Shown piece by piece: positions 14,752 to 32,052 of a DNA stretch of 64,000 nt. Source of the stretch: Erysipelotrichaceae bacterium (GTDB taxonomy: Bacteria; Bacillota_I; Bacilli_A; Erysipelotrichales; Erysipelotrichaceae); contig JAFRZA010000025.1 of assembly GCA_017442805.1 (NCBI GenBank), positions 1-64,000 of the forward strand, written 5' to 3'. The position numbers and the translations under genes are program-made. The notes below the pieces were generated by a model. It ran no database searches, was not told the origin of the DNA, and saw only the letters and a list, made by a program, of their open reading frames with translations. Within the stretch, counting starts at the first letter, position 1. Each line of letters opens with the position of its first letter.

Positions 14752-14782
14752 AAAAAGGGTCATCCGTTTACCGGATAACCCT
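14752..14782 (-). terminator. Terminator after the lysoplasmalogenase gene
   Basis: An 11-bp stem (AGGGT.ATCCG with CGGAT.ACCCT, one mismatch) and a 5-base loop, followed by TTTTTA on the minus strand. Confidence 0.8.
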
Positions 14783-14793
14783 AACTGATAAGC

Positions 14794-15456
14794 TTACAAA
14801 GCGGTGCTCAGCGCGATCAGCAGCAGGCCTACGAAGTAGGTCAGGCTGTTGGCGCGTATCAGCCACTTGTTCTCACCGAAGACGTAGTTGTAGAGGGTGA
14901 GAATGATGTCGGAGATCATGAACAGGAAGGAACCAATGCCCATGACCGTGAATCTGGTACCCGGAAGCAGCAGCGCCATGAACAGGCCGGTGATGCCGTG
15001 GGTGTAGATCGATGAAAGATAGAAGGTCATCAGCCATCTCATCTTTCCCAGCCTGAACTTCTCCGGCCAGCGGCCGCAGGCGTAGATGAAGCAGCTCAGC
15101 ATCAGGGCGACGACGGCGAAGATCCAGCACAGCTGGCTGAAGTTCTTGCCGTGCTCAACCATTACCATCAGCTCGTAGAAGATGAAGCAAAGGTTGCCGG
15201 CCAGAAAGAAATCGCCACCTCTTCCGAAGTCAAATACCAGGAAGATGTCGCCGAACCAGGCCAGTATGAACGCGACGATCAGCATCGTATGATAGCTGAC
15301 AAAGGTCTGCCGGGCGGCGGTATGACAGATGCCGTAGATCAGATACATGGTCGCCATGATGTACTTGTTGACGGCCCGGTATTTCTTGGTCCTGGAAGTT
15401 CTGGTAAAGAAGTAACAGAACAGGGCGATCAGATACAGGATGATGAAGATAATCAT
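14794..15456 (-). CDS. YhhN/TMEM86 family integral membrane protein, likely lysoplasmalogenase
   Basis: A 220-residue polytopic membrane protein of about eight hydrophobic segments. The family hydrolyses or binds the vinyl-ether bond of lysoplasmalogen in characterised members. Family-like features are the conserved acidic residue in AWFGDIFLVF and a late segment SFLFMISDIILTLY. I chose the ATG at 15456, preceded by GAGG; a longer frame would run into the upstream gene. It is the last gene of a four-gene operon whose other members also look lipid-directed. Function is inferred from family, not shown. Confidence 0.75.
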   Translation of the reverse strand: MIIFIILYLIALFCYFFTRTSRTKKYRAVNKYIMATMYLIYGICHTAARQTFVSYHTMLIVAFILAWFGDIFLVFDFGRGGDFFLAGNLCFIFYELMVMVEHGKNFSQLCWIFAVVALMLSCFIYACGRWPEKFRLGKMRWLMTFYLSSIYTHGITGLFMALLLPGTRFTVMGIGSFLFMISDIILTLYNYVFGENKWLIRANSLTYFVGLLLIALSTAL

Positions 15457-15466
15457 GATTCTTACC

Positions 15467-16618
15467 TCACAGATCAAAGATGGGAATTTCAATCTCCATG
15501 TCTGACAGCGGATAGCAGCAGCACGGATGGATGTAGCCGAACTTGCGGTCAGCCTGTCGGCGGAAGTCATCTTCCGGCTTCAGGTAATACTCCCCGCTGA
15601 TCAGCCGGCTGTGACAGAATCCGCAGACACCGCTGCGGCAGCGTACCACCGCCGGTATGCCGGCTCTTTCCAGAGCGGTAATGACCGTCTCATCATTTCT
15701 GGCCGTAAGCGCATAGACCTCGTCGCGGATGTGAACGGTAAGACGGTATATTTCCTCTCGGTCCACCCGGCGGTCAGTGACGCAGTTGCGCTCTCTTCTG
15801 ATCCGGGTAACGCCCAGCTTGTTTAGTTCATGAGTCACAAAGTCATACATGGCATCAGGTCCGCACATGAAGACGCTGCTGTCCTGCTCAATGAACTGGC
15901 TGAGGATGTCGGCGTTGATGAAGCCGTTGTAATAGCCTTCAGCCTGCTGGTCAGAGAGAACCGGAACGATGCTGATCCTTTCATCCTGATAGTCAGCCGG
16001 ATCGATCAGCAGATGTTCTCTGGTCCTGACGCCGTAAACCAGCGTCAGCCGGAAATCTTCGCTGCCTTCCCTGATGGCCTTCATCATTGAGATGAACGGG
16101 GTGACGCCGCTGCCGCCGGCAACGGCCAGCACATGTCCGCGATCCCGGATGTCATCATGACAGAAATCGCCGGACGGCTCGCTGACGGTAATGATGCTGC
16201 CGCTGCGGGCTTCATCGATCAGCCAGGATGAGAAAACGCCTTTTTTCTGTACGATGATCTCCAGTCTGCCATCCCTGGCCTGTTTTGGTGATGAGGCGAT
16301 TGAGTAAGGACGGCTGATGAAGGAGTCGTGGACCTCTGAGGACAGGGTCACAAACTGTCCGGCGCGGAAGAACGGAAAACTGCCGTCTTCCCTTAGGGAT
16401 TTCAGCGTTATCTTCCAGCAGTCAACACCGACTGGCTGTTTATCAGTGATTTTCGCCTTCAGCGTTCCCGGGTGCAGCGAGGCAGCCAGGCGGTTGACGC
16501 CGTAGACGGCAACGGGAATGTCCGCGGGACTTTCGGCAATCAGCTGACGGCGCTTCTGAGGCATTTCCAGACCGCGCTTGATGTCCTCTCCGGGATTATT
16601 GCTTCTCTTGAAAGTCAT
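15467..16618 (-). CDS. FNR-type flavoprotein reductase with C-terminal [2Fe-2S] ferredoxin domain
   Basis: A 383-residue electron-transfer protein: about 50 residues of unknown N-terminus, an FAD domain with RPYSIASSP, an NAD(P) domain with GGSGVTPFISMMKA and CGPDAMYDF, and a plant-type ferredoxin domain with Cys ligands in CRSGVCGFC and a final Cys in HPCCCYP. It would carry electrons from NAD(P)H to a partner oxidoreductase. The upstream gene is an FAD-dependent CrtISO/RetSat-like enzyme with 1 base between them, so that is the likely partner. Start supported by GGAGGG. Confidence 0.85.
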   Translation of the reverse strand: MTFKRSNNPGEDIKRGLEMPQKRRQLIAESPADIPVAVYGVNRLAASLHPGTLKAKITDKQPVGVDCWKITLKSLREDGSFPFFRAGQFVTLSSEVHDSFISRPYSIASSPKQARDGRLEIIVQKKGVFSSWLIDEARSGSIITVSEPSGDFCHDDIRDRGHVLAVAGGSGVTPFISMMKAIREGSEDFRLTLVYGVRTREHLLIDPADYQDERISIVPVLSDQQAEGYYNGFINADILSQFIEQDSSVFMCGPDAMYDFVTHELNKLGVTRIRRERNCVTDRRVDREEIYRLTVHIRDEVYALTARNDETVITALERAGIPAVVRCRSGVCGFCHSRLISGEYYLKPEDDFRRQADRKFGYIHPCCCYPLSDMEIEIPIFDL

Positions 16619-16619
16619 C

Positions 16620-18152
16620 CTAGCAGCCCTCCTTTTCCATGTCTCTGAGCGTCCTTGAGGCTTCGTTATAGCCGGACTTGTAACTGCTGGGGTAACCCAG
16701 CAGTCTTTCGCCGAAACCGCCGCCGATTCTTAAGCCGTCGACGCAGCGGTCTTCCTCGACCATCTGGATGCGGTTCATCAGACCGTCATAGTACTGCGAC
16801 TCATAGCCGTAGATGGTGCCCTGCGGATGGCCGCAGTAGCGTGCGTAGGTCTGCGGCGTGGCGATGGCGATCTCCTCGATGTGATCGTGTATGCTGGTGC
16901 CGGTAGCCTGCTCGAATCTTTCGATCATGGCCTTCGCTACCTTGTTCTTCATTTTGAAGTATTCTTCATCGCTTACCTGGCTCCAGACGTCGTCGGTAAA
17001 CAGCGTGGTCATGTAGAGAATGGCCGTCCCCGGTGGTGAGCACTGCGGATCAGCGTTATTCAGGCAGACCGTCGCCTGAGCGGCGGTGTTGCCGAACTTC
17101 TTCATGGCTTCATACTGCGCGACGCTGTCGCAGGTATCGTAAATGAAGTAGTTATGATCCTTAATTCCCAGTTCTTCCGCGGACTTATTCAGGCCGAGGA
17201 AGACAGTAAAGCCTCTTCCGGCCAGCTTGCGGTAGTTGGTCAGCCGGCGGGCCTTTTCGGGCACCGCTTCCGGCTTCATCAGCCTGCCGTAGACAACGTG
17301 CGGCGAGATGTCGGCAATGACGTGCCGGCTTTCGATGACCCGCCCGTCCCTGAGTCTGACGGCGCAGACGTGTCCGCTGTCATCGGTCAGGATCTCGGTC
17401 ACTTCGCTGTTGAACCAGATGTCGCCGCCCAGTTCGTGGATGCGCTGCTCAAAGGCCAGTGACAGTTCATGGGAACGGTGTTTGGGAATGGCGGCGCCCT
17501 TGCTGTAGTAGCTGTAGATCATGTTGGCGTAATGCAGGAAGCTGAGGTTATTGCCGTCAGATCCCAGGTAGCACCAGTAGGAATTCAGGTTATCGACGAT
17601 CTCCTTCGGATAGCCCAGGGCTTCGAAGGCTTCGTTAACGGAATAGGGACTGCAGGCCAGATAATCTGGATACTTCTCCATCATCACCTGCGGATCCGGC
17701 TTGCCCTTGGAAACGCTGAGGTATTCCATGGCGTCGCGGATCTGCTGACAGAGAGCGAAGAAATCACGGATGTATTTCTCGCCTTCCGGATGGATTCTGT
17801 TATTCGCCTTGGCGAATTCTTCATAACCAAAGGGCATGACATAGTCATAGCCTTCCTTGCGGGAGATCAGATGATAGGCGTCCTTAAGCTGGATCCATTC
17901 GATCTTGTCGGCCACTCCCAGCTGTTCAAACAGCTGGCGGGTGCTGCCTGGCTGCTCGGGAGTTCCGATGCCGTTGAATTCATGCAGAGAGGCCTCAAAC
18001 TCAAAGCGTCCCCTGACGAAACTCGTGACAAAACCGCCGGGTATGTTGTGCTTTTCACATACCAGACAGCTCTTTCCGGCCATCAGAACGCGGACGGCAG
18101 CGGCCAGACCGCCGTTACCGGCGCCGATGACGATCACATCGTACTTATTCAT
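16620..18152 (-). CDS. FAD-dependent oxidoreductase, phytoene desaturase/CrtISO/RetSat family
   Basis: A 510-residue flavoprotein with an N-terminal Rossmann motif (VIGAGNGGLAAAVRVLMAGK) then IPGG, and a C-terminal GGGFGERLLGYPSSYKSG block. Family members desaturate, isomerise or saturate polyenes and retinol. No other carotenoid genes are nearby, so a lipid or isoprenoid substrate is likely but unknown. The ATG at 18152 is one base after the lipid-kinase stop (TGAAATG). A GTG at 18161 is an alternative. The coupling to the kinase and the ferredoxin reductase suggests one pathway. Confidence 0.82.
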   Translation of the reverse strand: MNKYDVIVIGAGNGGLAAAVRVLMAGKSCLVCEKHNIPGGFVTSFVRGRFEFEASLHEFNGIGTPEQPGSTRQLFEQLGVADKIEWIQLKDAYHLISRKEGYDYVMPFGYEEFAKANNRIHPEGEKYIRDFFALCQQIRDAMEYLSVSKGKPDPQVMMEKYPDYLACSPYSVNEAFEALGYPKEIVDNLNSYWCYLGSDGNNLSFLHYANMIYSYYSKGAAIPKHRSHELSLAFEQRIHELGGDIWFNSEVTEILTDDSGHVCAVRLRDGRVIESRHVIADISPHVVYGRLMKPEAVPEKARRLTNYRKLAGRGFTVFLGLNKSAEELGIKDHNYFIYDTCDSVAQYEAMKKFGNTAAQATVCLNNADPQCSPPGTAILYMTTLFTDDVWSQVSDEEYFKMKNKVAKAMIERFEQATGTSIHDHIEEIAIATPQTYARYCGHPQGTIYGYESQYYDGLMNRIQMVEEDRCVDGLRIGGGFGERLLGYPSSYKSGYNEASRTLRDMEKEGC

Positions 18153-18153
18153 T

Positions 18154-19005
18154 TCAGACACCGGTCTCGACGGTATAGGTCAGAACATCTTCAATGACGT
18201 CGCCGTCGATCTGCAGAGCGCACGGTTCATCGAACGATACGGTCACCTTGCGGCCTCTTCTGACCGTTACCCAGTCGCTCTTTTTGACATGCTCGCCCTT
18301 ATTCAGAGAGGGGAAGCGCATCAGGGTGATCAGTCTGCTCTTCTTGTAGATGGTAACGGAGGAGACCAGACCTTCCTTTTCGAAACGGTCCTGATCCGGA
18401 GCGACCATCAGTCCGCCGCCGTAATAGCGGCCCTTCATGGTGGAAGCCAGCCAGACGTTTTCGAATTTCTGAGTCTCACCGTCAACCGTGACGGTTGCTT
18501 TCTTCAGTTTATATCCGCCTAACAACAGCTTAATGGCGATGTTGGAATAGTTCACCGGCTTGTCGGAAGTTGCTCTCTGAATGTCACCGACCCTGCAGGT
18601 CTCACCGTCAAGGCCATAGCCGATGCCGTTGAGGAAACGCCTCTGAATGCCGTTAACGGTGATCAGCGGCAGATTCTTCAGAAACGGCTTGAGGTCAAGC
18701 TTGCCGTCAACCACGTACTTCTCATTATCGCGGTAGAAGTCGTTTCCGCTTCCGCACTTGACATAGTACAGCGGGTTCTTGAATTCATAGCCATAGACAT
18801 CATTGGCGAAATGATTGATGGTTCCGTCTCCGCCGGTCAGGATGACCTCGTCATCCTTCTTAAGTCCGTCAAAGAAGGCCTTTAGATCCTTGATGTCCAG
18901 CAGGCTGGTAAAGGCGCAGTCAACATTGTGCTCGCCAGCCCATGCTCTGGCGTCACTTTCTCCGCGGGAATTATCGGCCAGCGGATTAAACAGTAAGTAA
19001 ATCAT
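18154..19005 (-). CDS. Diacylglycerol kinase family (YegS/LCB5) lipid kinase
   Basis: A 283-residue protein with the catalytic GGDGTINHFAND motif near residue 58 and the two-domain DAGK layout. Family members phosphorylate diacylglycerol or related lipids. GAGGAG lies 5 bases before the ATG at 19005 (MIYLLFNP); a longer in-frame start at 19020 lacks a site. First gene of the lipid operon. Confidence 0.86.
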   Translation of the reverse strand: MIYLLFNPLADNSRGESDARAWAGEHNVDCAFTSLLDIKDLKAFFDGLKKDDEVILTGGDGTINHFANDVYGYEFKNPLYYVKCGSGNDFYRDNEKYVVDGKLDLKPFLKNLPLITVNGIQRRFLNGIGYGLDGETCRVGDIQRATSDKPVNYSNIAIKLLLGGYKLKKATVTVDGETQKFENVWLASTMKGRYYGGGLMVAPDQDRFEKEGLVSSVTIYKKSRLITLMRFPSLNKGEHVKKSDWVTVRRGRKVTVSFDEPCALQIDGDVIEDVLTYTVETGV

Positions 19006-19093
19006 AATTTCTCCTCTCACAGGCCTTAAGCCTGCATCATTGTCATTTTTACAGCCGCCATCACGGACAGCGGACTGATGATTCTCTACTAAT

Positions 19094-19102
19094 ATATTAC
19101 CA
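19094..19102 (-). promoter_or_regulatory. Extended -10 promoter of the lipid operon
   Basis: TGG-TAATAT on the minus strand, about 90 bases before the kinase start, with no good -35. The leader between it and the gene carries a small hairpin (CAGGC/GCCTG, 19020-19034). Confidence 0.4.
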
Positions 19103-19146
19103 CATATGCACTGGTTTTAATCGCTTCATTATCTCGTAAGGCATGG

Positions 19147-20283: not shown

Positions 20284-21006
20284 TTAATCCCCCTCTACAT
20301 ACTTTTCCAGGGCATCGGTATCGATATAACCCTGCTTATCGCTGTTTTGCTGGTAGATCGTCTTCAGCTGATCTTCGCTGAAGCCCTTCTCTTCAAGCAT
20401 TTCCAGGATCTTCTGCCGCTGCTGCTGATACTTCTCCATGTCAGCGCTTTTCATCCGGTCACGTCCGGTGAAATACTCCGGCCAGTACAGGTAGTACAGC
20501 ATCCTCTGCAGCTGATACTTGTTGAAGCGGGTATCGCCGCTTATCTGCTCGAATTCATCAGCCAGCGCATAATCAGGATAGTGGCTCCATTTCATGACGA
20601 CGGTTCCGTTTTCGTAATAGAGCTTCTTTATGGCCTTCAGATCGCCTTCACGGTAGTATTCTTCCAGCTTATCGATGTTGGCTTCATACCACTCGATGTT
20701 CTCCAGCGTCTTCTGGTCATACTCATAGTCATTGTGATAATTCACATTGAATCTAAGCGATATCAGATAAGCCGCCGCAACGATCACCGCCACGATGATC
20801 AGCGAGCGGATCAAAGCTGATACGATCGAGCGGCTGACCGACTGGTGCGCTTCCTGCTTCATTCCCAGCATCCGGTCAATGAATCCGGCGACTTTCTGGC
20901 GGAAGCCCTTATAGGCGCCTTTCTTGTTCATGGTTCCGCAATAGGGACAGTATTCCGTGTCTTCACTGTAGGCTGCCCCGCAGTTTTTGCATATTATTTC
21001 CTTCAT
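20284..21006 (-). CDS. Zinc-ribbon membrane protein, unknown function
   Basis: 240 residues. Zinc ribbon at the N-terminus (CKNCGAAYSEDTEYCPYCG), a basic linker, one membrane segment around residues 65-85 (ALIRSLIIVAVIVAAAYLIS) and a Tyr-rich helical C-terminal part. The ATG at 21006 has GGAG upstream; an in-frame start at 21042 lacks support. It has its own strong promoter, separate from the TPM-protein transcript above it. Confidence 0.8.
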   Translation of the reverse strand: MKEIICKNCGAAYSEDTEYCPYCGTMNKKGAYKGFRQKVAGFIDRMLGMKQEAHQSVSRSIVSALIRSLIIVAVIVAAAYLISLRFNVNYHNDYEYDQKTLENIEWYEANIDKLEEYYREGDLKAIKKLYYENGTVVMKWSHYPDYALADEFEQISGDTRFNKYQLQRMLYYLYWPEYFTGRDRMKSADMEKYQQQRQKILEMLEEKGFSEDQLKTIYQQNSDKQGYIDTDALEKYVEGD

Positions 21007-21057
21007 ATTCTCATTTCTCCGCTGAAAAAGTACCCATGGCATTTTCTAACCTGTTTT

Positions 21058-21086
21058 ATTATATGGTCGGAGTCACTGACGGTCAA
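21058..21086 (-). promoter_or_regulatory. Promoter of the three-gene zinc-ribbon membrane operon
   Basis: -35 TTGACC (21081-21086), 17-base spacer, -10 TATAAT (21058-21063), about 50 bases before the start at 21006. One of the best promoter matches in the window. Confidence 0.75.
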
Positions 21087-21115
21087 TAACTGCTTAATAA
21101 AGATTGTAACAGCCA

Positions 21116-21150
21116 GAAAAAAGACAACCTTCACAGGGAAAGCTGTCTTT
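21116..21150 (-). terminator. Terminator after the TPM-domain gene
   Basis: AAAGACA and TGTCTTT arms with an inner CC/GG pairing, followed by a T run on the minus strand. It separates the two zinc-ribbon transcripts. Confidence 0.7.
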
Positions 21151-21162
21151 CGAAACAATAAA

Positions 21163-22248
21163 CTAGAATCCTCTTCGTCCGCCGCCGCCATGGGTAGCGC
21201 CGGATGATGAGGTGTGGGTCGAAGAACCGCCGGAGAATGATCCGCCGTGTCCTCCGCCGCCTGAAGAGCCTGAACTATGTGTTTCACGCGGCCGGGCCGT
21301 GCGGCTGGTCTTCGAATACATGTAATGATCGTGGTAATTGGTCAGATTGAAACTGCCCCTTTCCACATAGCGGTCGGCCTCGTACTTGCTGTGAACGGAC
21401 CTGTTCTTGGCCTTCATGATGCTGCATCCGATCAGCGCTGCCAGAATGCCGCTGCTGCTGGAAACGGCTCCGCCGGTGAGCAGATCATACGGTGCTCTTT
21501 CGGCTACCATGCTGATGTCGTATTCTTCGGAACCGCGTACGGTCACATCTGCCGGACGATTGTACTTATCGGTAATGTTATCGCACCTGATGACATATAC
21601 CGCGTTGGTATCTTCCGTTCCGATGTCAACATAACCTTCGCCGCGGTCAACATAAATCATGGTTATGTAGTCGCCGTTAGCGTCATAGACAGAGAAATGG
21701 CCGTTCAGGGGATTTCCCTTTTCGTCGTTCAGGTGAATGTAGAGACGGTTATAGTAGAAGTCGATCGGCTTGTCCGTGATAGCCGCATTGATGTACCGGT
21801 CACAGAGTTCGACGTATTTGGCTACAGCCACTTCAATATTGCCTGGCAGGAAAACATACACTTCATCAGCAATCGTTTCCAGACCGTAATCGGTAAAGTA
21901 GTCAATGCACTTTCCTCTGGTACTCAGATACATTTCCCGGCCGTTCATGTCAATGACCATGATTATTCCTGACCTCTCCGCTCCCCGGCCATAGCCGTTG
22001 TAGTCGAAGTAATCATCCGCAAAATCCACGATGTCCTTACCGTCGGTGTCAGCCGCGATGACGGCGATGACATCAACATCGTACTTGTCGCTGACCATCT
22101 GCAGCTGCTGCTGGCATATCTCCAGCCGCTCAGGTGCAAGTTCGCCGGTTTCATCAACGATCAGCGCGGTGTCTGCCGATGTACTGAGAGGCACGCTCAT
22201 CATAAACATCACTGCCAGGATGGTAAATAACTTAATAATTCTCTTCAT
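21163..22248 (-). CDS. TPM-domain secreted/membrane protein, YdjH-like
   Basis: 361 residues. A signal peptide at residues 1-25 (MKRIIKLFTILAVMFMMSVP), then a TPM fold (residues about 27-155) with LIVDETGELAPE, an extracellular stretch, a hydrophobic segment around residues 255-275, and a C-terminal tail of Gly, Ser and His. TPM proteins are membrane-linked and in B. subtilis YdjH works with YdjG and YdjI in placing PspA at the membrane. Here the neighbours are YdjG- and YdjI-like proteins, which supports the same role; no PspA gene is in view. Confidence 0.82.
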   Translation of the reverse strand: MKRIIKLFTILAVMFMMSVPLSTSADTALIVDETGELAPERLEICQQQLQMVSDKYDVDVIAVIAADTDGKDIVDFADDYFDYNGYGRGAERSGIIMVIDMNGREMYLSTRGKCIDYFTDYGLETIADEVYVFLPGNIEVAVAKYVELCDRYINAAITDKPIDFYYNRLYIHLNDEKGNPLNGHFSVYDANGDYITMIYVDRGEGYVDIGTEDTNAVYVIRCDNITDKYNRPADVTVRGSEEYDISMVAERAPYDLLTGGAVSSSSGILAALIGCSIMKAKNRSVHSKYEADRYVERGSFNLTNYHDHYMYSKTSRTARPRETHSSGSSGGGGHGGSFSGGSSTHTSSSGATHGGGGRRGF

Positions 22249-22260
22249 TGTCCTACCCTC

Positions 22261-23349
22261 CTAAAACAGTTTCAGCAGATATGTCGCCGCAAATACCAGT
22301 GCGCTTACCCCGGCCGCAATGATCGCAAAGTAGCGGGCATACAGACTGCCGTCGGTGGGCAGATCGCCGATCATCTTGCCGGTCTGACCGTTCATGGCAA
22401 AATAGTACTTCTTGCCGTTATAAGTCGTTACCAGCAGCCATACCGGCAGCAGGCAGTACTTGGCGTGTTCGCTTAAAAGCCGCATGTGCATGCCGGCTTC
22501 GCGCACGGATGTATAGCCGCTTACCGTTGATTCGATGGAGTTAGCCGTGGTGTTGCGGATGCGCTGGTTGGCCTTCTTGCCGCTTTCATCGGCGGTGATG
22601 TCGAATTTGTCGGCAAAATAGCCGGCCAGATAATTCATGTTGAAGTCAACCGCCTGACGCATGTCAAACGGCTCAATCGATTCCATCATCGCGGTATTCA
22701 TCTTGCTTGAGCCGTTGGCGGGAACATCATCAAAGCTGATGTCGCCATCGCGGAAGACATTGTAATACCGGGTTTCGGTATAGTCGTAATCATGGTCGGA
22801 CCAGCTTCTGGTCCTGGTGGCCACGTATCTGGCCTTGGCATGGACATCGGCGTCATACAGCCAGAAGGGGACGTAGACACCCTTGATCTCCTGCATGTGC
22901 TTTTCGGCCTTGAAGGCGGCCGGTGCCAGCGGCTTGTCCGAGACGTGTTCGCGGTACTTCTGAATGGCCTGCTGCTTGCTGAACTTGAAGGGGATGACCT
23001 TGTCAGGTCTTAAAGACCCCCTGAACTGATCGACCATGACGACGGGATTGCCGCAGTACGGACAGCTGGAAGCCGCAGTGGTTTCATCGGTAATGATGTC
23101 ACCACCGCAGCTCTTGCATACATACTCACGGATATTCTGCTTCTCCTGCTGACTCCATTCGCCATCGGGCTGGGCAGTCCAGCTGAGTTCGTTATTAACC
23201 GTTTCAGCAATATCCTCGTCATACTGCTTGATCATGTCAACGTCAAATTCAGAATGACAGAACGGGCATTTCAGATTCTGTGTAGATGAGTCGAATACCA
23301 GTATCCCACCGCAGTTAGGACATTTGTATTCCTTTAATCCATCACTCAT
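22261..23349 (-). CDS. TFIIB-type zinc-ribbon membrane protein, YdjG-like
   Basis: 362 residues. Two zinc ribbons (CPNCG ... CPFC at residues 10-33; CKSCG ... CPYC near 75-100), a long soluble domain containing PFWLYDADVHAKARY, and a C-terminal membrane segment (residues about 335-358). The family is common in Firmicutes, and YdjG of B. subtilis matches the layout. Spacing of 12 bases to the TPM gene. Confidence 0.82.
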   Translation of the reverse strand: MSDGLKEYKCPNCGGILVFDSSTQNLKCPFCHSEFDVDMIKQYDEDIAETVNNELSWTAQPDGEWSQQEKQNIREYVCKSCGGDIITDETTAASSCPYCGNPVVMVDQFRGSLRPDKVIPFKFSKQQAIQKYREHVSDKPLAPAAFKAEKHMQEIKGVYVPFWLYDADVHAKARYVATRTRSWSDHDYDYTETRYYNVFRDGDISFDDVPANGSSKMNTAMMESIEPFDMRQAVDFNMNYLAGYFADKFDITADESGKKANQRIRNTTANSIESTVSGYTSVREAGMHMRLLSEHAKYCLLPVWLLVTTYNGKKYYFAMNGQTGKMIGDLPTDGSLYARYFAIIAAGVSALVFAATYLLKLF

Positions 23350-23364
23350 TTGTAACCTCCCGTA

Positions 23365-23386
23365 ACAGCTGACAGGCGTCAGCTGT
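23365..23386 (-). repeat. Intercistronic hairpin
   Basis: ACAGCTGAC and GTCAGCTGT form a perfect 9-bp stem with a 4-base loop between the DUF4428 and YdjG-like genes. No T run follows on the minus strand, so it more likely affects mRNA stability or processing than termination. Confidence 0.5.
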
Positions 23387-23394
23387 CAAACTTT

Positions 23395-24237
23395 CTAAAG
23401 CTTGTGTCCGCAGCTGGGACAGAACTTGGTGTCGGCGTCGGTTATCTTGGTTCCGCATTCCGGACAGAATCTGTTGACTTCCGCTACCGGCTTGGGTGCT
23501 CCGCAGGCACGGCAGAACTTGCCGCCTTCGTTCTTGGTTCCGCACTTCATGCAGTACCAGACTTCGACTTCTTCCTTCTTTTCCTCCTCTTCGGTGAATT
23601 CGACGCCGTTCTTGTAGTAGGCAAATTCCTTCCGCGGATCTTCCCAGCCTCTGCTAGTCAGCTTGGTGCAGATCTGATTGGCCATTTCGGCGTATTCCTT
23701 ATAGAGGTCGCTTTCCGGAGAAGTCGGTCTCTTTTCCGTCAGTTCGAAGTTCAGGTCATCGAAGAAGTCATTTCTGACCTGGATGCAGACATTGAACTTG
23801 TACTCGTATTCGTACTTGGGCGGATTGAAGGAGACCTTCTTGCCTTCGCTGTCCTCGTCGTACTGCTCATCAACATCCTCGTCAACCGTGATCTTGACGC
23901 CCAGGACATCGCTGTAGCTGATCATGTCCGGATTGGCGCTGCGGAAGTTGGATGAGGCGGATACCAGGACCTTCTTGAGATTGTCGTCGAAGTAGACCTT
24001 ATATCTCTTGCCGATGATTTCCGTGGGGGCAAAGTTCTTCAGAGCGGACTCATTGGCCTCTCTGTACTGCAGCTGCTGCTTGATGGCAGCTACGGAAGTA
24101 TGTCTTCTGCCGGTAAACCAGGGAGAAAGCTTGGAGGCGCAGTCCTTGCACATGTTGCCGTCATCAAGCTTGCGGTTACCCAGCAGTTTGATTTCCTTAC
24201 CGCAGATGTCGCAGTATTTCTTATCGAATAAACCCAT
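23395..24237 (-). CDS. DUF4428-like protein with C-terminal double zinc ribbon
   Basis: 280 residues. An N-terminal four-Cys unit (CDICG ... CKDC) followed by WFTGRR is the DUF4428 type; a middle domain (residues 60-215) has beta-rich, charged sequence; the C-terminus carries two zinc ribbons (CMKCG ... CRACG; CPECG ... CPSCG). No enzyme motif is seen, so an adaptor role is plausible. It lies 11 bases downstream of the SPFH gene, so they are co-transcribed. Confidence 0.8.
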   Translation of the reverse strand: MGLFDKKYCDICGKEIKLLGNRKLDDGNMCKDCASKLSPWFTGRRHTSVAAIKQQLQYREANESALKNFAPTEIIGKRYKVYFDDNLKKVLVSASSNFRSANPDMISYSDVLGVKITVDEDVDEQYDEDSEGKKVSFNPPKYEYEYKFNVCIQVRNDFFDDLNFELTEKRPTSPESDLYKEYAEMANQICTKLTSRGWEDPRKEFAYYKNGVEFTEEEEKKEEVEVWYCMKCGTKNEGGKFCRACGAPKPVAEVNRFCPECGTKITDADTKFCPSCGHKL

Positions 24238-24248
24238 AGCGTCACCGC

Positions 24249-25334
24249 CTATTCAGGCTTCTTGGTTCCGCAGACTGAGCAGAAGTTACCGTTGCAGCCG
24301 GCACCGCAGTTGGGGCAGTACCACGAATACTGCTGAGTCTGAGCCGGAGCGACACCGGCGTTCAGGCCCGCCTGCTGAGCCATGTTGACACCGTAGTAAG
24401 CCATGGCCGGTCCATTGGGATTCTTGGCAGCGTCCTTCATGGCGGTGATGGTAGCGTCAGTTAAGCCGGCATCCTTGATGTACGGATTGGTGTACATGGC
24501 GGCCTTCTGAGCATCGGTGATGAGTTTCTGATCTTCTTCGGTCAGAGATACGGTTGCCAGAGCGACGTTGACGACCTGAATGCCCCGCAGTTCATTCCAC
24601 TTGGCATCCAGAGCTTCGTTGAGAGCGTTCTCCAGTTCGGTATTGTGAGCGATGATCTCGCTGGGTCTCAGTTCCATCGTTGACAGCTTGGCTAATGCCG
24701 GCTGTAAGGCGGAAACGAATTCGATCCTCAGCGTGTCTTTCAGCTGATCTACGTAGTAAGCCTCAGCGACGTTGCCGCAGACATTGACATAGAACAGGAT
24801 CGGGTCAGTGATCTTGAATGAATAGGTGCCGGCGCATCTGATCTGAATGTCGACATCCAGGTTGATGCGGGAATCAACTACTCTGAACGGTACCGGCGTA
24901 CTGGTGCCGAACTTGTTGTCGAGAATTTCCTTGGTGTTGAAGTAGTATACTCTCTGATCCTTGCCGGCTTCACCACCGTAGGTGAAACGCTTCTTGAAGG
25001 TCTCAAAGCTCTTCAGCAGGCCCTCGCCCAGAGAACCGGCGAAGATTGACGGTTCGGATGAAGAATCGAAGGTGTACAGGCCCGGTTCGGCGCAGACTTC
25101 AACGATCTTGCCATCCTCAACGATGATCATGCACTGACCGTCAGCGACGGCGATTCCGGATCCGCTGGTGATGATGTTGTCATTGCCGCGGTTGCCGGCG
25201 AACAGACCGGAGACTCTCTTGTGTCCCCTTTCAACCAGGACATTGCTGTCCATGGCTTCGCAGTAGAAGTATTCCTTCCACTGATCGGCGATTGTGCTGT
25301 TAAGCGCTTGTAATCCACTACTAATTAAACCCAT
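24249..25334 (-). CDS. SPFH-domain protein, YdjI-like, with C-terminal zinc ribbon
   Basis: 361 residues. The N-terminal two thirds (about 25-270) are an SPFH/virion-core-like domain with GLYTFDSSSEPSIF and RINLDVDIQIRCAGTYSFKI; residues 270-335 are Ala/Gly-rich; a zinc ribbon ends the protein (CPNCG ... CSVCG). Soluble, with no membrane segment, as in YdjI, which binds YdjG/YdjH at the membrane. AAAGGAG precedes the ATG. First structural gene after the HTH-Panacea regulator. Confidence 0.86.
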   Translation of the reverse strand: MGLISSGLQALNSTIADQWKEYFYCEAMDSNVLVERGHKRVSGLFAGNRGNDNIITSGSGIAVADGQCMIIVEDGKIVEVCAEPGLYTFDSSSEPSIFAGSLGEGLLKSFETFKKRFTYGGEAGKDQRVYYFNTKEILDNKFGTSTPVPFRVVDSRINLDVDIQIRCAGTYSFKITDPILFYVNVCGNVAEAYYVDQLKDTLRIEFVSALQPALAKLSTMELRPSEIIAHNTELENALNEALDAKWNELRGIQVVNVALATVSLTEEDQKLITDAQKAAMYTNPYIKDAGLTDATITAMKDAAKNPNGPAMAYYGVNMAQQAGLNAGVAPAQTQQYSWYCPNCGAGCNGNFCSVCGTKKPE

Positions 25335-28380: not shown

Positions 28381-30156
28381 TTACTTGATCTCGTTGAATC
28401 CTTCTCTGGCTGCATAGGTGGTATGCAGTAATTCATGAGCCTTATGGGAGTTCGGTTCACCCAGGAACTTGTCATACAGTTCAATGATCTGAGGATTGTT
28501 GTGAGACTGACGGATGACCTGACGCTCGTCCTCGGAATACAGAGCCTTGGCTCTCTTTTCCTTATAGGTGTCGATGATGTCCAGATCTTCGTTAGGCATC
28601 AGAGTCGGCTTGATGAACGGCTGGCCGCCGCCATTGATGCAGCCGCCCGGGCAGCCCATGATCTCAATGAACTGATACTTGGACTTGCCTTCGCGGATCT
28701 GATCGAGCAGCACCTTGGCGCTCTTCATGCCGGAAGCGATGGCTACATTGACGACCGTGCCGTTGATGTCGATGGAGGCTTCTCTGATACCGGCATCGTG
28801 ACCCTTGACTTCGTCAAAGGTGATCTTGTCCTTTTCCTTGCCGGTCAGCTTGAAGTAGACGGTACGTAAGGCGGCTTCCATGACGCCACCGGTAACACCG
28901 AAGATGACGCCGGCGCCGGTGTAATCGCCCATGATGTCCTGATCCCAATCTTCATCAGGGAGCTTGTTGAAGACGATACCGGAACGCTTGATCATCTTGG
29001 CCAGTTCTCTGGTGGTGATGACGGCATCGACATCTTCCAGGCCGTTGACCTTGAGCTGCTCTCTCTGTCTCTCAAACTTCTTGGCAATGCAGGGCATGAC
29101 GGATACGACGAAGATGTCCTTCGGATCAATGTCATGCTGCTGAGCCCAGTAGGACTTGATGATGGCGCCCTGCATCTGATGCGGGGACTTGCAGCTGGAA
29201 AGATGCGGCAGCAGATCGGAATAGTTGTATTCAGCGTAGTTGACCCAGCCCGGTGAGCAGGAAGTGATCATCGGCAGCACGCCGCCTTCAGTCAGGCGGT
29301 GCAGCAGCTCGGTGCCTTCTTCCATGATGGTCAGGTCAGCGCCGAAGTTGACGTCGTAGACTCTGTAGAATCCCAGTCTTCTCATGGCGGCGATCATCTT
29401 GCCGGTGACCGGAGTACCGACCTTGTAGCCGAACTCTTCACCTAAGGCAGCTCTGACAGCCGGAGCAGCCTGGATGATGACGTACTTGCCGTCTCTGAAG
29501 GCCTTGTCAACAAGGTCGATCTGAGAATGTTCCATCAGAGCGCCGGTCGGGCAGACGTTGACGCACTGACCGCACTGGATGCACGGTGAATCGGCAAAGC
29601 TTCTGTTTTCCGCCGGGGAGACGAAGGTCTTGAAGCCTCTGTTCTCGAAGCCGAGGATGCCTAAGCCATGGGCATTTGAGCATCTGGCAATGCAGCGGCC
29701 GCACAGGATGCACTTGGAAGTGTCTCTGACCAGAGCCGGAGCAAGCTGGTCAATGTGAGTTTCAGAGCGGACACCGGCGAAGGCGCCTTCTCTGGCACCG
29801 GTCAGCTGAGCGACATGCAGCAGCTCGCAGTGACCGTTTTTCTCACACTGCTGGCAGTTCATTGAGTGATTGGAAAGCAGCAGTTCAACACTTCTTCTTC
29901 TGGCTTCGGTAGCCTTCGGAGTGGAGATTCTGATCTCCATGCCTTCGGAAACCGGATAGACACAGCTGGCAACCAGTCCTCTGGCGCCGGTAGCTTCTAC
30001 CAAGCAGACACGGCAGGAACCCTGATTGCATTCGCCATGATTGAATGTACATAAGGAAGGAATTTCGTAGCCACACTGTCTGGCGGCTTCCAGGATGGTC
30101 AGCGAGCTGTCAACCTGATAGGGAACGCCTTCAATCTTGATATTTACTAATGACAT
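28381..30156 (-). CDS. hydA: [FeFe] hydrogenase catalytic subunit
   Basis: 591 residues. N-terminal [2Fe-2S] domain (C36, C48, C51), a His-Cys [4Fe-4S] stretch (HSMNCQQCEKNGHC), two 4Fe-4S ferredoxin sites (CILCGRCIARC, CIQCGQCVNVC), then the H-cluster motifs TSCSPGW, MPCIAKKFE and IEIMGCPGGCINGG. A C-terminal small-subunit-like tail follows. This is the HndD/HydA layout of multimeric NAD(P)-linked bifurcating hydrogenases: H2 formation or uptake using reduced ferredoxin and NADH together. Third gene of hydC-hydB-hydA. Confidence 0.95.
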   Translation of the reverse strand: MSLVNIKIEGVPYQVDSSLTILEAARQCGYEIPSLCTFNHGECNQGSCRVCLVEATGARGLVASCVYPVSEGMEIRISTPKATEARRRSVELLLSNHSMNCQQCEKNGHCELLHVAQLTGAREGAFAGVRSETHIDQLAPALVRDTSKCILCGRCIARCSNAHGLGILGFENRGFKTFVSPAENRSFADSPCIQCGQCVNVCPTGALMEHSQIDLVDKAFRDGKYVIIQAAPAVRAALGEEFGYKVGTPVTGKMIAAMRRLGFYRVYDVNFGADLTIMEEGTELLHRLTEGGVLPMITSCSPGWVNYAEYNYSDLLPHLSSCKSPHQMQGAIIKSYWAQQHDIDPKDIFVVSVMPCIAKKFERQREQLKVNGLEDVDAVITTRELAKMIKRSGIVFNKLPDEDWDQDIMGDYTGAGVIFGVTGGVMEAALRTVYFKLTGKEKDKITFDEVKGHDAGIREASIDINGTVVNVAIASGMKSAKVLLDQIREGKSKYQFIEIMGCPGGCINGGGQPFIKPTLMPNEDLDIIDTYKEKRAKALYSEDERQVIRQSHNNPQIIELYDKFLGEPNSHKAHELLHTTYAAREGFNEIK

Positions 30157-30168
30157 TTCGATACCCTC

Positions 30169-32052
30169 CTATCTCTTTGAAATAGCGCCGAACTTACATG
30201 ATGAGATACAGGTTCCGCACTTTACGCACTGGCTGGGGTCAATCTTCATGGAAGCGAGCTTATGACCCGGAGCCGTGTAATCGGTTCTGGTAATGCAGTT
30301 AGCCGGGCAGTTGCGCTGGCACATGCCGCAGCCGATGCACTTTTCGGGATCGATGTAGTATTCCATCAGGTTCTTGCAGACGTGAGCCGGGCACTTCTTA
30401 TCAACGATGTGAGCAATGTACTCATCCTTGAAGTGAGTCATTGTGGAAGTGATCGGGTTGGATGAAGTCTGACCTAAGGCACACAGTGAGTTGGCCTTGA
30501 CGGTCTGGCTCAGTTCTTCGAGTTCGTCGAAGTCCTTCATGGTGCCCTTGCCTTCGGTAATGCGGGTCAGGATCTCCAGCATTCTCTTGGTGCCGATACG
30601 GCACGGCGTGCACTTGCCGCAGGATTCATCGCAGATGAATTCCATGTAGAACTTGGCAACGTCAACCATGCAGTTGTCTTCGTCCATGACGATGGCACCG
30701 CCGGAACCCATCATGGAGCCCTTGGCTACCAGGTTATCGAAGTCGATCGGTTCATCGAGGTATTCCTCAGTCAGACAGCCGCCTGACGGACCGCCGGTCT
30801 GAATGGCCTTGAATTTCTTGCCATTGGGGATGCCGCCGCCGATATCGTAGATCAGTTCTCTTAAGGTCGTGCCCATCGGTACTTCAACCAGACCGACGTT
30901 GTTGACCTTACCGCCTAAGGCGAAGACCTTGGTGCCCTTGGACTTCTCAGTGCCTACTGACGCGAAGGCATCAGCGCCGTTTCTTAAGATGTAAGGAACA
31001 CAGGCCAGAGTTTCAACGTTGTTAACGCAGGTCGGCTTGCCCCATAAGCCCTTGACTGCCGGGAATGGAGGTCTCGGTCTGGGCATGCCGCGCTTGCCTT
31101 CGATGGAGTTCAGCAGAGCTGTTTCTTCACCGCAGACGAAGGCGCCGGCGCCTAAACGGATATGGCAACGGAAACTGAAGTCAGTTCCCAGAATGTGGTC
31201 GCCTAACAGACCAACTTCAGTTGCCTGCTTGATGGCAATTTTCAGACGCTTTACAGCGATCGGATACTCAGCACGTACATAGAAATAGCCTTCGGTAGCG
31301 CCGAACGCATAGCCGGCAATGACCATGCCTTCGATGACGGCCAGCGGGTTGCCTTCCAGAATGGAACGGTCCATGAATGCGCCCGGGTCGCCCTCGTCAC
31401 CATTACATACAACGTATTTCTGATCAGCATCGACATTTAAGGCAAACTGCCACTTGCGGCCGGTCGGGAATCCGCCGCCGCCGCGTCCGCGTAAACCGCT
31501 CTTTGATACTTCATCGACGACTTCCTGCGGAGTCATGGTCAGAGCCTTCTTGAGGCCTTCAAAGCCGCCCATGCCTAAGGCTTCGTTGATGTCTTCAGGA
31601 TTGATGACACCGCAGCCGTGCAGGGCAATACGTCTCTGCTTCTTATAGAAGTTGATTTCATCCTGTTTTGAGACCTTGGCCTTGGTAACAGGATCAACGT
31701 ATAACAGTCTTTCAACGACCGTGTTGTTGATGATGTCGCTTTCGACGATCTCTTCAACATCTTCGATCTTAACCATTCTGTATAAGGTATCTTCGGGGTA
31801 GATCTTGACGAACGGTCCCTGTGAGCAGAAACCGAAACAGCCTACCTGATTGACAGTGGCTCTGTCTTCGACACCCTTTTCCTTTAATACTTCTTCGAAT
31901 CTGGCCTTGATCTCATCGGAATGGCTGGACAGACAGCCGGTACCGCCGCATAAGACGATGTGACGCTTGCCGTCCGTGCCATTGATCTTGGTTTCGAGAT
32001 TAGCAGTACAGAGAGCCTGCTGGGCGTTTAATTCTTCTACAGTTCTAATCAT
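30169..32052 (-). CDS. hydB: Hydrogenase NADH/FMN subunit, NuoF-like
   Basis: 627 residues. An N-terminal thioredoxin-like [2Fe-2S] domain (CGGTGC ... CFGFC), the NuoF core with the FMN/NADH loop GRGGGGFPTGRKW near residue 190, the cluster motif ESCGKCTPCRIG, and two C-terminal 4Fe-4S sites (CIGCGMCQRNC, CVKCGTCISSC). It takes NADH or ferredoxin electrons to the hydrogenase subunit. The start overlaps the end of hydC by 4 bases (ATGA). Confidence 0.94.
   Translation of the reverse strand: MIRTVEELNAQQALCTANLETKINGTDGKRHIVLCGGTGCLSSHSDEIKARFEEVLKEKGVEDRATVNQVGCFGFCSQGPFVKIYPEDTLYRMVKIEDVEEIVESDIINNTVVERLLYVDPVTKAKVSKQDEINFYKKQRRIALHGCGVINPEDINEALGMGGFEGLKKALTMTPQEVVDEVSKSGLRGRGGGGFPTGRKWQFALNVDADQKYVVCNGDEGDPGAFMDRSILEGNPLAVIEGMVIAGYAFGATEGYFYVRAEYPIAVKRLKIAIKQATEVGLLGDHILGTDFSFRCHIRLGAGAFVCGEETALLNSIEGKRGMPRPRPPFPAVKGLWGKPTCVNNVETLACVPYILRNGADAFASVGTEKSKGTKVFALGGKVNNVGLVEVPMGTTLRELIYDIGGGIPNGKKFKAIQTGGPSGGCLTEEYLDEPIDFDNLVAKGSMMGSGGAIVMDEDNCMVDVAKFYMEFICDESCGKCTPCRIGTKRMLEILTRITEGKGTMKDFDELEELSQTVKANSLCALGQTSSNPITSTMTHFKDEYIAHIVDKKCPAHVCKNLMEYYIDPEKCIGCGMCQRNCPANCITRTDYTAPGHKLASMKIDPSQCVKCGTCISSCKFGAISKR

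Follow-up and report, generated by a model that had tools for sequence, protein, structure and literature searches.

The locus described here raised the question of what is accomplished by a lipid kinase, a carotenoid isomerase-like flavoenzyme, a reductase and a lysoplasmalogenase-family membrane protein that are encoded together in an Erysipelotrichaceae bacterium. The original prediction was that the four genes form one operon and that its products phosphorylate a lipid, reduce or isomerise a double bond with electrons from the reductase and handle a vinyl-ether lipid. The genes were located, all on the minus strand, within the 64,000-nucleotide stretch of DNA that was analysed (the window). 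ORF and domain tests identified gene 1 as a YegS/DgkB-type lipid kinase (18154..19005; 283 aa), followed by a CrtISO/CrtI-fold FAD enzyme that forms the core catalytic subunit (gene 2, 16620..18152; 510 aa), an FNR-type NAD(P)H reductase carrying a [2Fe-2S] domain at its C terminus (gene 3, 15467..16618; 383 aa) and a YhhN-family membrane protein (gene 4, 14794..15456; 220 aa). The gaps between them were 1, 1 and 10 bases, and the ORFs, strand, coordinates and gaps were all as predicted; together with the recurrence of the same order in other genomes, this spacing supported a single operon of four genes. A terminator-like hairpin of 11 pairs with the tail TTTTACTT was detected 3' of gene 4 (14756..14782, minus strand), for which support was moderate since the region contained six such sites versus 3.9 in shuffled sequences. 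The sole promoter-like match lay 5' of gene 1 (19091..19120, minus strand; 9 of 12 matches) and may be due to chance, as 2.9 matches were expected.

Gene 2 matched the Amino_oxidase family of Pfam (PF01593) at 58.5 bits, and its best NCBIfam model was that of carotenoid isomerase (TIGR02730), with a score of 107.5 bits that did not reach the cut-off of 586.9. An AlphaFold2 model (pLDDT 86, pTM 0.87) had gamma-carotene desaturase as its nearest solved fold (4rep; Z 35.9, rmsd 2.9 over 470 residues), and PPOX, CrtI and the polyenoic fatty acid isomerase PAI of Cutibacterium (Propionibacterium) acnes, which makes conjugated linoleic acid (2b9w; Z 24.9), exhibited the same fold. Gene 2 therefore shares its whole-length fold and best NCBIfam models with the CRTISO/CrtI family (TIGR02730, TIGR02734; PDB 4rep, 4dgk) but differs in having scores far under the family cut-offs, in being genetically tied to an FNR-[2Fe-2S] reductase and in residing in a genome in which no carotenoid synthesis gene was detected. 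A carotenoid synthesis context was rejected, as a search of the organism's own genome (94% complete) for the phytoene/squalene synthase family (PF00494) gave no matches. Gene 2 is not itself a PAI despite the common FAD superfamily fold: identity in the fold alignment was 11%, and 2b9w was absent from the phmmer hits of gene 2.

Gene 3 scored over the cut-offs of the FAD_binding_6 (PF00970), NAD_binding_1 (PF00175) and Fer2 (PF00111) families. These FAD, NAD and [2Fe-2S] domains are shared with the multicomponent reductases Hcr, BenC and PaaE, but gene 3 scored under the equivalog cut-offs, its partner is a CrtI-fold enzyme rather than an oxygenase and it carries a conserved N-terminal extension of ∼50 aa that terminates in an LHP motif. 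Of 120 FNR ORFs of the family, some of which are repeats of one locus, 113 contained this motif and 117 the [2Fe-2S] cysteine pattern.

A survey of FAD-enzyme genes detected an FNR gene beside 90 of 97, with pairing defined as location on the same strand and within 2.6 kb; the seven unpaired genes were mostly at contig ends or were very distant copies. This association supported the predicted flow of electrons from the FNR protein to a CrtISO/RetSat-like enzyme acting on a double bond. Relatives of the FAD enzyme and its reductase were found across Bacillota at 27 to 60% identity. At a threshold of E 1e-20 or better, FAD-enzyme relatives were present in 25 of 392 genomes of a phylum sample, 17 of 348 genomes of a Lachnospiraceae sample and 13 of 341 genomes of a Clostridia-class sample. 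In a tree of 84 proteins, the loci with a kinase and a YhhN gene formed one clade with 100/100 support. The core of the operon is thus the FAD enzyme and its reductase: the FNR is paired with the FAD enzyme in nearly all cases surveyed, and the kinase and YhhN protein, being confined to one clade, are accessories rather than the engine.

Several unusual forms of the pair were also encountered. Two loci (L214 and L215) had a tandem CrtISO-FNR-CrtISO arrangement in which two different FAD enzymes accompany one reductase gene. In L186 and L187 (genomes G453 and G468), a CrtISO gene with an FNR nearby contained five in-frame TGA codons, which suggests that TGA is translated as an amino acid in these genomes. 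At L193:6923-8704 and L218:6485-8245, the FNR was extended at its C terminus by ∼190 aa, and the extension in L218 gave no Pfam match. Related membrane proteins flanked the pair in L060, L101 and L206; one of those in L206 belongs to DUF5692 (PF18948), and the other is a weak match to it.

A scan of species genomes yielded 60 loci, ∼28 of which had near full-length relatives of the FAD enzyme. All four genes were present in the same order in 20 other loci (the 19 comprising L034-L043, L045-L052 and L056, plus L169), and in two more (L044 and L053) the four-gene locus was cut by contig ends. A lack of conservation of the order, which would have counted against the original prediction, was thereby not observed, and recurrence at this level indicated that the order was not due to chance. 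Titled records for these window-type loci were almost all from the ruminant gut (RUG, RGIG goat and sheep, and water buffalo), with two 'SIG' records naming no host, and the carriers spanned two bacterial classes. Comparison of the window genome with a Mogibacterium-labelled assembly (G478) detected 79% identity for the FAD enzyme and 82% for the kinase versus 46% for the housekeeping GTPase Era. A second comparison (G424) gave 74% for the FAD enzyme versus 47% for Era, with less striking values for the kinase (64%), FNR (52%) and YhhN protein (48%). These identities suggest that the cassette has passed horizontally between bacterial classes, a conclusion that we regard as likely rather than proven because Era was the sole housekeeping gene compared. 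A plasmid origin was rejected, as there were just three distant plasmid hits at 25 to 28% identity. In the sister clade of the window operon, 6 of the 12 rows had a TetR gene upstream, and one locus only (L102) contained an ene-reductase whose best solved match was 2,4-dienoyl-CoA reductase (1ps9).

The neighbors of more distant relatives provided an indication of the substrate. Directly upstream of the pair, one branch of the tree carries a gene for a PAI homologue (E 4e-148 to 2b9w), and some of these loci additionally encoded an AMP-ligase, an ACP and an acyl-ACP thioesterase. In 14 of 14 genomes carrying this PAI subtype (L100 type), the gene was on the same strand as the FAD enzyme and 20 to 229 bases from it. 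In G869, PAI was observed as a fragment only. Of these genomes, seven came from a PAI-based search of Lachnospiraceae and three from a PAI-based search of other carriers, indicating that the linkage was not only an artefact of searching with the FAD enzyme. Nine of 12 PAI genomes in Lachnospiraceae had the FAD enzyme (0.59 expected; p 3e-11), as did 7 of 10 in a sample of relatives (0.62 expected; p 2e-8), with both p values being inflated by genome kinship. The window organism itself has a second CrtISO-FNR pair (L094:7537-13631, G000:C12), which is 40% identical to the window pair and whose FAD gene is followed by a PAI homologue ∼3.1 kb downstream; in another genome of the same genus (G003), PAI begins at a contig end, ∼200 bases past the FNR.

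This linkage is a feature of relatives. The FAD enzymes of the PAI-linked clade are 30 to 36% identical to that of the window, PAI is not adjacent to the window operon, only ∼8 of 20 carriers of a window-type locus have a PAI anywhere in the genome, and PAI was found in none of the seven sister-clade genomes that were searched. No acyl ligase or thioesterase gene is present within the window operon. A universal association of PAI with the pair was rejected, as the second PAI subtype (L094 type) occurred close to the pair in the window's own genus only and otherwise stood alone or beside a large Fe-S flavoprotein. The association with a fatty acid isomerase nevertheless supported the lipid context that had been predicted and answered indirectly, in favor of lipids, whether the substrate of the FAD enzyme might be unrelated to them. 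A separate observation concerned an Fe-S/GltD-like flavoprotein of ∼940 aa, found either close to PAI of the second subtype or following the FNR of the pair (L262, L264, L266, L268, L269, L272 and L273; L198, L199, L201 and L221) and at times accompanied by HypA/HypB-like nickel genes.

From the observed gene order, pairing, phylogeny and PAI linkage of relatives, we infer that genes 2 and 3 encode a two-component biohydrogenation system that uses NAD(P)H to reduce the C=C bonds of unsaturated acyl chains. The probability of this reading was put at about one half, as it depends on homology at 30 to 36% identity to the PAI-linked clade. The FNR-[2Fe-2S] protein would take electrons from NAD(P)H and maintain the CrtI-fold enzyme's FAD in its reduced form. 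This enzyme, which is probably located at the membrane surface (CrtI is a membrane-peripheral enzyme [PMC3382138]), would then hydrogenate, or isomerise and hydrogenate, an acyl double bond. The substrate would most likely be a dietary polyunsaturated or conjugated fatty acid, either free or in a glycerolipid, and the outcome would be detoxification of unsaturated fat. The weakest assignments are those of the accessories: the kinase probably returns the resulting (di)acylglycerol to phosphatidic acid, and the YhhN protein probably removes lysolipid. Their involvement in the clearance or rebuilding of glycerolipids is conjectural.

Two alternatives concern the accessories. The kinase is recognizable as such from the YegS_C (PF19279; 58.8 bits, cut-off 27) and DAGK_cat (PF00781; 34.7 bits, cut-off 23.6) families, with a TIGR00147 score of 60.5 bits under the cut-off of 118.65 and a GGDGT motif kept in seven aligned copies. 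Gene 4 matched the YhhN family (PF07947; 60.7 bits, cut-off 25.6), a lysoplasmalogenase family whose bacterial members are active (PMC9052158), and a lysoplasmalogenase with an adjacent lipid kinase would suit an operon whose products phosphorylate, reduce and recycle the cell's own vinyl-ether lipids. YhhN proteins are, however, also frequent in bacteria that do not synthesise plasmalogens (PMC9052158), and this part of the original prediction did not hold up. A search of the window organism's genome (94% complete) for the plsA-type family (DUF2229, PF09989) gave no matches, so that plasmalogen synthesis was rejected, and most relatives have the core pair without YhhN or kinase, YhhN being an addition of one clade that lies outside the core. 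In addition, gene 4 appears to keep seven of the eight residues proposed for the lysoplasmalogenase/TMEM86 active site (K, G, D, H, G, S, D and Y), the His being replaced, as read from spacing and an alignment to another genomic YhhN copy. A plasmalogen route is accordingly the least probable of the readings considered. No solved structure for YhhN was retrieved by sequence search at up to E 1; three YhhN genes are present in this 1.8-Mb genome (G000:C3:30807-31373, G000:C1:14806-15342 and G000:C1:110039-110536). The other alternative, clean-up of lysolipids or dietary phospholipids in which the fatty aldehyde or chain freed by YhhN is processed by the flavin pair, draws on the release of fatty aldehyde by YhhN and its protection from toxic lysolipids (PMC9052158) and on the position of YhhN as the last gene in all complete window-type loci. 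It is very unlikely, given that the pair occurs elsewhere without YhhN and that neither of its proteins resembles an aldehyde dehydrogenase.

Two further alternatives concern the reaction of the flavin pair itself. RetSat-like chemistry is known in the superfamily of gene 2, and the closest solved folds are the carotenoid desaturase 4rep and CrtI, so that the pair could reduce dietary isoprenoids or other lipophiles that are abundant in forage, such as carotenoids, retinoids, phytol, sterols or quinones. The neighbors found in relatives, namely PAI, ligase, ACP and acyl-ACP thioesterase, are not isoprenoid genes, which makes this quite unlikely; the lack of a phytoene/squalene synthase match argues in the same direction, if not against dietary substrates. 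A non-redox cis-trans or positional isomerisation of fatty acids, with the FNR serving only to keep the FAD reduced, is unlikely but has a precedent: CRTISO is active only with reduced FAD and performs an isomerisation without redox change, and FADred-dependent isomerisation is likewise known for anaerobic CrtI (PMC3382138). The presence of an FNR alone is thus no proof of reduction, as reduction of the flavin from NAD(P)H could give either hydrogenation or redox-neutral isomerisation. Isomerisation is also consistent with carotenoid isomerase being the best NCBIfam model of gene 2 and with the PAI that adjoins the pair in relatives being an isomerase. Against it, a dedicated and nearly obligate NAD(P)H reductase would be a costly means of supplying a catalytic reduced flavin, and PAI, where present, would already perform the isomerase step. 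On these two grounds, hydrogenation of acyl chains was preferred over isomerisation.

Biohydrogenation detoxifies polyunsaturated fatty acids (PMC2836310). Rumen bacteria convert dietary unsaturated fats to trans and saturated fats, which shapes the fat of milk and meat, and the conjugated linoleic acids produced by gut bacteria act on the host. The reported reductase for conjugated linoleic acid (rumenate, c9,t11-18:2) of Butyrivibrio fibrisolvens uses NADH at 1:1 and is membrane associated but non-integral (PMC4478896); it constitutes 0.5% of cell protein and is considered part of a detoxifying process (PMC2836310). The proposed reaction and the setting in a rumen anaerobe are shared with the window enzyme, a likeness by description only, and the cofactor ratio and membrane association would fit the latter but do not identify it. 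In the open literature found, a single sequence is reported for the reductase step, and this oxidoreductase is described as missing from KEGG, COG and Pfam (PMC4478896); a recent review of gut fatty acid conversion gives an isomerase for the same step but no reductase (PMC11271093). No CrtISO-plus-FNR fatty acid reductase, gene for a conjugated linoleic acid reductase or RetSat-like gut enzyme was found described in the open-access literature searched, outside which most subscription papers lie. The four-gene cassette is therefore a candidate for the poorly known genes of rumen fat hydrogenation. A conserved, mobile and compact pair, with PAI beside its relatives, renders the question of the biohydrogenation genes directly testable, and the candidate pair would provide marker genes for metagenomes. 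More tentatively, and with rather less confidence than in the reaction itself, the CrtI-fold enzyme with its dedicated FNR might be the previously unassigned basis of much fatty acid biohydrogenation in the gut and rumen, functioning as an isomerise-then-reduce module beside PAI in one clade and represented in the window by a mobile kinase/YhhN cassette that crosses bacterial classes in ruminants.

Two other regions of the window were noted. A run of genes on one strand at 20284-25334 encodes small zinc-ribbon proteins, a TPM-domain protein and an SPFH/Band-7 protein, and several of these genes also adjoin the operon in L034, which is from the same genus. At 28381-32052, genes for an [FeFe]-hydrogenase and a NuoF-like subunit are adjacent, an arrangement comparable to that of electron-bifurcating hydrogenases.
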